The translations under genes were made by a program, and so were the position numbers. The notes below the pieces were generated by a model. The model saw only the letters and a list, made by a program, of their open reading frames with translations. It ran no database searches and was not told where the DNA came from. A stretch of DNA of 14,392 nucleotides. Source: an uncultured Arenimonas sp. (GTDB lineage: Bacteria; Pseudomonadota; Gammaproteobacteria; Xanthomonadales; Xanthomonadaceae). Each line of letters opens with the position of its first letter. Within the stretch, counting starts at the first letter, position 1. Shown here one piece after another: positions 846 through 3,599 of the stretch. The stretch is taken from contig CAMLKR010000049.1 of NCBI GenBank assembly GCA_946480565.1, positions 1 through 14,392 of the forward strand. The letters are read 5' to 3'.

Positions 846-896
846 GCCTAACCAATCATTCAAGCCGACGTGCCTACGGCACGCGGCTTAACTTAG
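846..896 (+). repeat. attC: attC site 3, left part, interrupted by an insertion sequence
   Basis: R'' GCCTAAC (846-852) and an extended stem (AAGCCG-A-CGTGCC, loop TAC, GGCACG-CGGCTT) are intact. The site continues as TTAACTT plus AG (895-896) and then breaks off where the insertion element begins. Joining 846-896 to 2055-2063 (GCGTTAGGC) restores a 60-bp attC whose spacer has the same length as that of attC 1 and 2. The insertion therefore lies between L' and R' and separates the R' cleavage box from its hairpin, which should abolish cassette recombination here. Confidence 0.85.
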
Positions 897-901
897 CAAC
901 T

Positions 902-909
902 GTCTTGAT
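902..909 (+). repeat. Subterminal inverted repeat of the IS element, transposase-3' side
   Basis: GTCTTGAT is the exact reverse complement of ATCAAGAC at 2042-2049. It begins 7 bp inside the inferred left boundary (895) and overlaps the region just past the transposase stop codon. Confidence 0.7.
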
Positions 910-912
910 CGG

Positions 913-1839
913 CTAGGCAACCAGGGCGGCGCTTTCAGTCCTCAGCTCCTCCCGCCGGCGGGCGTTCACGATGCCCAACAGTTTGCGCATGCAGGCCACC
1001 AGGGCGACCTTCGCGACCTTTCCTCTGGCCCGCAGTTGTTGGTAGTGATCGCGCAGCTCCGGCTCCCAGCGCACGGCCGTCAGCGTCGACATGTACAGCG
1101 CGATGCGCACGTCGGGCCGCCCGCCATAGATGCGCCGTTTGCCTTGAAGCTGCCCGCTGTCCTTGTTCAGCGGCGCCACGCCCACAAGCTTGGCGATCTC
1201 CTGCCGGCTGAGCCGGCCCAACTCGGGCAGCAAGGCCAGGGCCGTGGTCTGGAACACCGGACCCAAGCCCTTGGCCGACTTCAACGCCGGCGTGGTGTGC
1301 GCCTTGGTGAGCACGGCCAGCTGCGCGTCGATCGCCTTCATCTCCTTGCGCAGCGCCGCCAGGGTCTGGCGCATCAGCAGGCGAAGCGCGGGAATGGCCA
1401 AGTCCCACTGCTGGCGCGTGCGTTGGAGCGCATCGAGCACCTGCTGTCGTCGGCGAAGCCAAGCCTTGAGCTCAGCCTGCCAGGCGGGCGGTGCCTGGTA
1501 CGGCCGGAGCCGGGCATGGAACACCCGGGCCATCTCGGCCAGGACACCCGCGTCGAGCGCATCGGTCTTGGCGAGCTGGCCGGTGGCCCGGGCGAAATCC
1601 CGGGCCTGCCGGGGGTTGATGCGGGCAATCCAGAACCCCGCCTGCGCACAGGCCTCGATGACGGCGGCTTCATAGCCGCCGGTGGATTTGACCACCACGC
1701 GCACGTCGGCCAGCTTCGCCAGAGCCTTCACCAGGCGCCGGATGCCGGCCGGCGTATTGGGGTAACGCTGCAACTCCGCCCGGCCGTCGATGGCCACGTC
1801 CAGCATGGCCTTGCTCACATCGATCCCGATTCCCGGCAT
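913..1839 (-). CDS. IS110-family DEDD transposase with Glu-to-Lys change at a catalytic position
   Basis: This 308-residue protein is an IS110-family recombinase. The N-terminal RuvC-like DEDD domain shows GIGIDVSK with Asp7, then KTDALDA with Asp93 and Asp96. The C-terminal transposase_20 domain has LVGVAPLNKDSG with the nucleophile-type Ser228, followed by RRIYGGRPDVR. The second DEDD acidic residue, normally Glu in an E-A/S-T-G motif, is Lys51 (VVVKSTGGY; codon at 1687-1689, AAA where GAA is expected). Spacing from this position to the two aspartates matches that recalled for IS621 (42 and 45 residues), so the alignment is firm. The ATG at 1839 is chosen because GGGAG lies 6 bases upstream; a TTG at 1845 directly abuts that GGGAG. 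The protein should form circles and insert them at attC guided by the upstream RNA, but this copy is predicted inactive or impaired. Confidence 0.9.
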   Translation of the reverse strand: MPGIGIDVSKAMLDVAIDGRAELQRYPNTPAGIRRLVKALAKLADVRVVVKSTGGYEAAVIEACAQAGFWIARINPRQARDFARATGQLAKTDALDAGVLAEMARVFHARLRPYQAPPAWQAELKAWLRRRQQVLDALQRTRQQWDLAIPALRLLMRQTLAALRKEMKAIDAQLAVLTKAHTTPALKSAKGLGPVFQTTALALLPELGRLSRQEIAKLVGVAPLNKDSGQLQGKRRIYGGRPDVRIALYMSTLTAVRWEPELRDHYQQLRARGKVAKVALVACMRKLLGIVNARRREELRTESAALVA

Positions 1840-1868
1840 GACCAACTCCCGTTGTAGAGTAAGGACAG

Positions 1869-2025
1869 GTCGAGAGCTGTCACGTCCAAGCCCCTTCTTA
1901 CCGGTGCGAGCGGCTACTCGCGCAACTGTTCGGGCGTGAGGACGTGAGATCCGGTGTGCGGCCCAGGCTAAGTTACGGTGGCTGACACCCAGGCGTTATC
2001 GGGCTCGCACACCGGGCTCTCGACC
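1869..2025 (-). ncRNA. Predicted bridge (seek) RNA of the IS element, three-way junction with target and donor loops
   Basis: Read on the minus strand, the transposase-upstream region folds as follows. A closing stem pairs 2016-2025 with 1869-1878 (10 bp, perfect). The target arm pairs 2006-2015 with 1951-1960 (10 bp, perfect), continues with GCCC/GGGC, then opens into a loop capped by a GGTG/CACC hairpin. The donor arm pairs 1940-1946 with 1881-1887 (7 bp), then GCCC/GGGC, then a loop capped by GCGAG/CTCGC. Each loop carries two guide segments, one on either side of its cap. Target guides are 1991-1998 (UAACGCCU, same as the target strand up to the CT core) and 1968-1975 (UAACUUAG, complementary to CTAAGTTA). 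Donor guides are 1922-1928 (CAGUUGC) and 1897-1901 (GUAAG). This is the geometry described for IS110-family bridge RNAs. Exact 5' and 3' ends are inferred from the closing stem. Confidence 0.85.
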
Positions 2026-2041
2026 GCTAGGCTAATCAACA

Positions 2042-2049
2042 ATCAAGAC
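2042..2049 (+). repeat. Subterminal inverted repeat of the IS element, transposase-5' side
   Basis: ATCAAGAC is the partner of GTCTTGAT at 902-909. Three bases (GTA, 2050-2052) separate it from the AG core at 2053-2054, followed by the attC remainder GCGTTAGGC. Confidence 0.7.
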
Positions 2050-2054
2050 GTAAG

Positions 2055-2063
2055 GCGTTAGGC
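2055..2063 (+). repeat. attC: attC site 3, right part (R' box) after the IS
   Basis: GCGTTAGGC contains R' GTTAGGC (2057-2063). Joined to 846-896 it completes a regular attC. It also supplies the left half of the IS target as read on the transposase strand (TAACGC followed by the CT core). Confidence 0.85.
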
Positions 2064-3116: not shown

Positions 3117-3524
3117 ATGAAGACTCTCTCCATCGCGCTCTTGGTGTTCTCACTTTCCAGCCCATTTGGAGTGCATGCCATGGATGACTCGGTAGAGGGT
3201 TCCCGAATTTCGGAGAACACGGATGGGCAGTTCTCGTACAACTACTTCAACTACCGACCCGACGTAATCGAGTTTTTTGAGTCAAAGGGGCTGCAGGGCG
3301 GCGGGTACACCTGGGAGGCTTTGGCCAGATCGGGGCTTGAGCTCACCGGGTCACAACTCGTTGGAACCATCGAGTTCGACTCGGAGGGTGATGCGCTGTT
3401 TGCGTACTCGCCGTCGCGCCCTGCGCTTGAAGAGCTGGAGGCTGTGGTCAAGCGGCTGGCTTCCGACGCAGCATTCCGAGACGAGTGCATTGCGCTTGCC
3501 GAGGATCGCGGTGATCTGGAGTGA
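3117..3524 (+). CDS. Exported Imm51-like protein, integron cassette
   Basis: This 135-residue protein starts with a signal peptide (MKTLSIALLVFSLSSPFGVHA, probable cleavage after Ala21). The rest resembles the Imm51 immunity family: a GGGYTWEALARSGLE motif (about residues 61-75), then TIEFDSEGDALFAYSP (about 84-99), then an amphipathic helix with ALEELEAVVKRLASD. Imm51 proteins are described as immunity proteins of polymorphic toxin systems. I assign it from motif memory, so moderate certainty. Export would place the protection in the periplasm, which is unusual if the toxin acts in the cytoplasm. No toxin gene is in the window. The ATG is only 3 bases past R' of the long attC, and the stop is 1 base before R'' of attC 6. 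Confidence 0.65.
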   Translation: MKTLSIALLVFSLSSPFGVHAMDDSVEGSRISENTDGQFSYNYFNYRPDVIEFFESKGLQGGGYTWEALARSGLELTGSQLVGTIEFDSEGDALFAYSPSRPALEELEAVVKRLASDAAFRDECIALAEDRGDLE

Positions 3525-3525
3525 G

Positions 3526-3599
3526 GCCTGACCAATCATTCGATCCGACGCCTTCGGCGCAACCCAACGAATAAGCAATCAAGACGTAAGGCGTTAGAC
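3526..3599 (+). repeat. attC: attC site 6, hybrid/degenerate, containing an IS end relic
   Basis: R'' GCCTGAC (3526-3532), spacer CAATCATTC and the CGCC-TTC-GGCG hairpin tip match the array's short attC. The right arm CGGCTT is replaced by unrelated sequence. The end of the site (3576-3597) is identical over 22 bases to 2040-2061, the junction of the IS with attC 3. R' is GTTAGAC (3593-3599), which does not fully match R''. Probably not functional. Confidence 0.7.
3576..3597 (+). mobile_element. Relic of an IS110/IS1111-type element end in attC 6
   Basis: The 22 bases are identical to 2040-2061. They cover 13 bases of the IS transposase-5' terminus (including ATCAAGAC), the AG core and GCGTTAG of attC. 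Farther left the similarity is weak (AAT shared, the rest divergent). I infer an older insertion of a related element at the same attC position, largely deleted. Confidence 0.55.

Follow-up and report, generated by a model that had tools for sequence, protein, structure and literature searches.

The 14,392-nucleotide stretch of DNA analysed here (the window), from an uncultured Arenimonas sp., carries an insertion sequence of the IS110 group whose left end would encode a bridge RNA programmed for attC, the recombination site of integron cassettes. This reading, which draws on the anatomy, covariation and location of the element as seen in sequence, is given a probability of roughly 0.88, and the window element is, on the same grounds, one copy of an attC-specialised clade.

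The putative insertion sequence, of IS110 type, spans 1156 bp on the minus strand (897..2052), with ends placed from the guides and from relatives. Its transposase gene (913..1845, minus strand) has a TTG start at 1845 and an in-frame ATG at 1839, and was assigned to the IS110-family DEDD transposases by domain and family matches. The protein matches PF01548 (DEDD_Tnp_IS110, N-terminal; 8.1e-25) and PF02371 (Transposase_20, C-terminal; 1.9e-13), scores 178.6 bits against NCBIfam NF033542 'IS110 family RNA-guided transposase' (cut-off 140), and matches the solved transposases of IS621 (8.5e-25) and ISCro4 (4e-26), elements that likewise encode a DEDD transposase. A long left end (LE) of 207 bases (1846-2052, minus strand) contains the RNA, the right end (RE) is 16 bases long (897-912, minus strand), and the core dinucleotide CT (AG on the plus strand) flanks the element on both sides. 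An 8-base sub-terminal inverted repeat is present in a left copy (GTCTTGAT, 2042..2049), three bases from the end, and a right copy (902..909), five bases from the end. These repeats measure 6-10 bp in the attC-class ends listed, where they are centred on TGTCTT, and 2-5 bp in the other ends listed; the attC-class lengths exceed the 2-3 bases published for IS110-group elements and lie between the reported norms of the IS110 and IS1111 groups, the latter being 7-17 bp.

The predicted bridge RNA is located upstream of the transposase gene on the same strand (1868..2025, minus). Positions 1869-2025 fold into a three-way junction with a minimum free energy (MFE) of -79.4 kcal/mol (z = -4.95, 0/200 shuffles as stable), and the stems covary in relatives. 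The first-pass annotation had described this junction with perfect closing, target and donor stems of 10, 10 and 7 bp. The junction and the 10-bp target stem, which continues for 5 bp past a one-base bulge, stand as described; the closing stem has 9 bp within 1869-2025 and reaches 10 only when base 1868, read from the sequence, is counted, and the donor stem is present but comprises 8 bp rather than 7 in the MFE structure, with an inner 4 bp. The target loop comes first and the donor loop second, and all four guides include the core. Guide positions in the window were set from an alignment of relatives, and all four matches proposed in the first pass (8, 8, 7 and 5 bases) were recovered at these positions on the minus strand: the left target guide (LTG; UAACGCCU, 1991..1998) equals target-left at 2053-2060 (8/8), the right target guide (RTG; UAACUUAG, 1968..1975) is complementary to CTAAGTTA, the core plus target-right at 889-896 (8/8), the left donor guide (LDG; CAGUUGC, 1922..1928) equals the RE end plus the first core base (7/7), and the right donor guide (RDG; GUAAG, 1897..1901) is complementary to CTTAC, the core plus the LE end (5/5). 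The available text on IS621 likewise describes an RNA in the left end, with target then donor loop and the core in all four pairings.

Bridge RNAs are known for IS110 elements, as described in the portion of the source available (PMC11208160). By analogy, the target loop would recognise TAACGC with the CT core on the R' side of attC and the CT core followed by RARTTA on the L' side, and the donor loop would recognise both termini of the element itself, again together with the core. The circle formed on excision (RE-core-LE) would then recombine with attC in such a way that the element comes to lie between L' and R' and LE adjoins R'; RNA expression, formation of the ribonucleoprotein, the circle and strand exchange at the CT core are extrapolated from work on IS621 and on seekRNAs. 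The window element differs in its target from IS621 and ISCro4, which use REP-type sites.

The window element is inserted between L' and R' of an attC, with LE adjoining R'. Of the interrupted site, positions 2053..2063 hold the core (2053-2054) with the R' half, and positions 846..896 hold the R''-L''-loop-L' part, which ends with the other core copy (895-896); the rejoined empty site scores as attC. Cassette open reading frames (ORFs) are on the plus strand and the transposase is on the minus strand. Among the ORFs of the array are those for a GNAT acetyltransferase (2469-2993; Acetyltransf_3, 2e-30) and an Imm51-domain immunity protein (3117-3524; 8e-13). A 13-base left-end remnant, TACGTCTTGATTG (3576..3588, minus strand), stands beside TAACGCCT in another attC of this array. 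Among 90 matches to an attC target joined to a left end in the loci collected by that point, with overlapping loci counted separately, the RNA was absent behind only this remnant and a decayed match within L104, which suggests that the remnant is the scar of an earlier, related insertion. In another copy, L248, the 14 bases that open its own type of left end occur once more, together with a CT, in the left flank, possibly also an end scar.

A contig search with the single window protein found no relative; a later profile scan of species genomes did, and among the best 80 loci taken from it, 16 encode transposases 58-70% identical to that of the window. Ninety-eight copies were oriented, from 80 stretches picked from the listing of matches to the Rfam family sX15 (see below), 14 profile-scan loci and the window. 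An IS110 N-terminal motif, marking the transposase start, was found within 150 bases downstream of the RNA in 89 of the 98; the nine without a recognised start include contig ends and decayed-looking copies. The left end was readable in 93 copies, window included, after L202, L212, L223, L224 and L225 were dropped, and the right end was scored in 56 of these (29 of the attC class, 27 others). The flanks of L214-L217 are masked; their right ends were unused, and left targets containing N were excluded from the class test described below. Most known members of the attC-specialised clade in this set come from xanthomonad genomes, the group searched, and one comes from Azomonas. Three stretches (L177, L015 and L184) carry paired attC-clade copies approximately 2-3 kilobases apart. 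A DNA search of plasmids gave matches in 30 records, none covering more than 28% of the query, a protein search gave 2452 matching plasmid records, with no IS1111-attC name usable for a tree among the 60 listed, and viral contigs yielded four distant relatives.

Guides of attC type, chosen from the RNA alone by a rule written after the copies had been viewed, were present in 41 of the 93 copies, window included. Of these, 38 have a left target resembling attC, which differs from TAACRCCT (TAACGCCT or TAACACCT) by no more than one base, as against 0 of the 52 copies with other guides, supporting the first-pass claim that the RNA reads the two sides of attC and gives site-specific targeting. In the three exceptions, L002, L011 and L199, the left target departs from this sequence by more than one change. 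The left flanks of the attC-guided copies are mutually different apart from those of L008 and L010, which are cut by contig ends and possibly represent one place, leaving at least 39 separate places. The LTG equals target-left at all 8 bases in 30 of the 41, and the RTG matches over 8 bases in 19, 7 in nine and 5 in one of the 29 copies with a right end. In the donor loop, the LDG matches the RE end over 7 bases in 9/29 copies and over 6 in 20/29, and the RDG is the exact complement of the LE end in 77/93; the two change together, the window having GUAAG with CTTAC and L203 having ACAAG with CTTGT. Within the set, the RTG UAACUUAG and the target CTAAGTTA each occur in the window alone, as does the combination of the LE CTTAC with the RDG GUAAG.

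The joined flanks of attC-class copies, minus one core, scored as attC in 12/29 (window included) versus 0/27 of the others. The detector found 3/29 in its first version and was relaxed once to give these counts, with 0.0 per shuffled window; 17/29 attC-class empty sites fail this strict test, and in the window the relaxed detector found only two complete attCs. One or more further attCs are present in the flanks of 17/29 attC-class copies versus 0/27 others, and L-box inverted repeats were identified in 24/29 right flanks of the attC class; the right flank of L011 is not attC.

Copies with other guide classes use other sites, namely those of the AAGAGCCT, CAACCCCT, TCCGCTCT, TCGGCTCT, GTGGATCT, GTGGCTCT and AGATCCCT types and one Solimonas site. 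The mean left match of these non-attC classes to their own sites is 8.0 in three and 6.5, 6.2, 6.0, 5.4 and 5.0 in the others, the weak ones including the AAGAGCCT type (6.2), the CAACCCCT type (5.4/8) and the Solimonas copy (5.0). When LTGs were re-assigned over nine target classes, 4 of 362,880 assignments were as good as or better than the true one, itself included, and for RTGs over six target classes the true assignment was the only one of 720; with core bases removed these counts were 17/362,880 and 1/720. This class test permits a small guide shift, identical for all classes; if the columns are kept fixed, L189-L193 and L002 have guides offset from their targets, with matches at 1-2 of 8 bases. 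The target classes were defined after a cruder first grouping by single linkage, which merged attC guides with CAACCCCT guides; the permutation test on that grouping gave 56/20,000 (LTG) and 182/20,000 (RTG) permutations as good, and 149 and 151 without the core.

Covariation is also seen at single bases within the attC clade, with p-values that ignore kinship. Base 4 of the RTG (C/T) follows the target (6-1, 4-17; p 0.003, or 0.017 with identical RNAs collapsed; L011 excluded), as does base 5 of the LTG (G/A; 33-3, 0-3; p 0.002), where all three A cases come from a single RNA carried by three copies in one genome. The guides therefore covary with their targets both between clades, by re-assignment, and within the attC clade. 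A hold-out set of 20 further places, most of the non-attC ones from genomes already used, gave the same picture on the left side: the three scoreable attC-guided copies (3/3) lie at TAACGCCT, TAATGCCT and TAACACCT, one attC-like RNA (L261) is decayed and unscoreable, and none of the other 16 places is at an attC-like left target. The right end was found for none of the three attC-guided hold-out copies. Left targets of L263 and L264, read by eye, are TCGGCTCT and equal their own guides, and L262 and L269 show a poor guide match.

The stems were examined in an alignment of 31 of the 32 unique attC-clade RNAs (L006 left out), in which 95.2% of cells pair. In this alignment the 3' arm of the window's donor stem is one column off, and the stem structure was then set for the other rows. 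Compensatory changes were found in the homologous copies, with nine pairs changed on both sides compared to a mean of 4.9 in shuffles, none of 500 reaching nine, and a maximum of 5 in slid versions; the number of further pair types, one of five measures, showed no excess (19 versus 19.0 in shuffles).

The same locus is also covered, on the opposite strand, by a curated RNA family. Rfam sX15 (RF02234) matches 1869..2029 on the plus strand at full length (model 1-159) and above its gathering score (95.1 bits, threshold 55); the Rfam entry, in which the strand opposite to the transposase is annotated as an sRNA, is titled 'Xanthomonadaceae sRNA', and its line gives no function. A match upstream of the transposase gene and opposite to it was found in 14 of the 16 loci of 58-70% identity (15 matches in all), including L002-L013, L015 and L052; L001, with only about 100 bases upstream, had no match, and L014 had none over threshold. 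Across 395 genomes of one family, sX15 exceeded the cut-off in 70 (88 at E <= 0.001), as against 0 of 14 control genomes. The source paper of sX15 is reportedly Schmidtke et al. 2012. In Xanthomonas massiliensis, two stretches carrying attC-clade copies also hold matches to Rfam sRNA-Xcc1 (L009:3409-3500 and L010:1757-1844).

One alternative is that the functional RNA is sX15 on this opposite strand, acting as a regulatory sRNA, with the guide matches as side effects of shared sequence. The opposite orientation to the transposase is constant in the window, the 14 loci and the 89 of 98 copies with a recognised transposase start, and the base-pair statistics lean to the opposite strand: across 30 RNAs (window excluded) the transposase strand has 45 A-C cells versus 13 G-U cells, 23 of the 45 being in the second pair of the closing stem, and its MFE is the lower one in 1/32 RNAs of the attC clade and in 18/31 of the rest. 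Guide geometry, however, favours the transposase strand. In the available text on IS621, the target loop comes first; on the left side it is the bottom strand that pairs with the LTG, and on the right side it is the top strand that pairs with the RTG (PMC11208160). The transposase-strand RNA fits this scheme in loop order and in all four guides, and the opposite strand would not; moreover, a regulatory sRNA leaves unexplained why guides track targets, making this explanation unlikely. We take the transposase strand as the probable bridge RNA strand, with sX15 being either a real antisense RNA or a non-functional curated strand.

As to the former, it is a tentative suggestion, more doubtful than not, that sX15 serves as a natural antisense RNA against the bridge RNAs of an entire IS110 clade, covering all four guides. 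No promoter was detected by a consensus scan across positions 1750-2120 of the linear window, and on the joined RE-LE circle of attC-class copies TTGCTT-17-TAGCCT/TACTGT, a weak match to the consensus, is located just before the RNA. If the antisense reading is true, sX15 could mask the guides or set transposition in the integrated state, which lacks a circle-junction promoter, and the clade would carry a programmable guide together with its own anti-guide. A precedent is ISPpu9, for which two sRNAs are described as regulating such a transposase gene in the available part of the report (PMC8450116).

A second alternative to a bridge RNA of IS110 type is that the element belongs to the described IS1111-attC group with a downstream, attC-seeking seekRNA. 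Guide RNAs that seek attC are known for the IS1111-type elements ISKpn4, ISPst6 and ISPa25, with the RNA downstream of the transposase, according to the available text (PMC11187229); the window element shares this kind of target, being likewise inserted in attC, and the sub-terminal repeats of 6-10 bases at the attC-class ends are reminiscent of IS1111. Membership of that group is nevertheless very unlikely. The RNA in the window is upstream of the transposase, with a right end of just 16 bases, whereas the seekRNA paper, in the sections available, usually places the IS1111 RNA region downstream, with few exceptions, and the corresponding sections of the bridge-RNA paper describe IS1111 elements whose right end far exceeds the left in length. 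The guide order, top versus bottom strand, is also that of IS110 and is reversed in ISKpn4, ISPst6 and ISPa25.

The idea that the transposase itself recognises folded attC, RNA guides being unneeded, draws on attC being a structured site and on the IS1111-attC elements having been described by their site before the RNA was known, but it is highly improbable, given that relatives with other guides use other sites and that guide and target bases change together. Chance resemblance of short guides to sites is scarcely credible against the re-assignment tests, the stem covariation, the attC-guided set on its target and the hold-out set.

When 36 unique intact transposases were placed in a midpoint-rooted tree, the 20 of the attC class grouped together with a support of 0.68 (1.0 for the 19 without the window), and the window is the first branch within this group, so attC programming looks like having one origin in the set examined. 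One relative, P0061 of Novilysobacter luteus, is 69% identical to the window transposase and is named ISStma8 by one source. The DEDD catalytic residues are intact in the clade and not in the window copy: codon 53 (1687..1689, minus strand) is AAA, encoding lysine, where the DEDD glutamate of IS621 and ISCro4 aligns. Glutamate is nearly invariant at this position in the alignment of relatives; among the 36 unique intact transposases (window included) it is found in 33, lysine occurs in the window only, and two were unread by the pattern. Alanine at conserved catalytic residues abolished IS621 recombination, as stated in the available text on that element. The window copy is therefore probably dead, no longer mobile by itself and immobile unless helped in trans.

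Searches of the literature, in which subscription journals were mostly absent, retrieved no IS110-type, upstream-RNA element aimed at attC, nothing joining sX15 with IS110 and nothing on ISStma8. The novelty is an apparently attC-aimed RNA of IS110 type upstream of its transposase, the published attC-seeking RNAs found being of IS1111 type and downstream. In the parts of two cassette surveys available, transposases, integrases and insertion sequences are listed among Xanthomonas cassette proteins (PMC12444791), and, in a plant-microbiome survey, ISfinder hits place 10% of the phyllosphere cassette transposases in IS110, 'IS1111 group' (PMC11089894). Members of the attC clade may be among these transposases.

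The clade gives the Rfam sRNA family sX15 a concrete identity, and offers a natural series of guide-target swaps from which bridge-RNA rules could be studied. The findings indicate that RNA-guided attC seeking is not confined to the IS1111 type, where the RNA is downstream, but also occurs in the IS110 type, where it is upstream, suggesting that cassette arrays are a niche reached by guide RNAs in both. As insertion parts R' from L', the cassette at the interrupted site should stay frozen while the element is present, until the element leaves.
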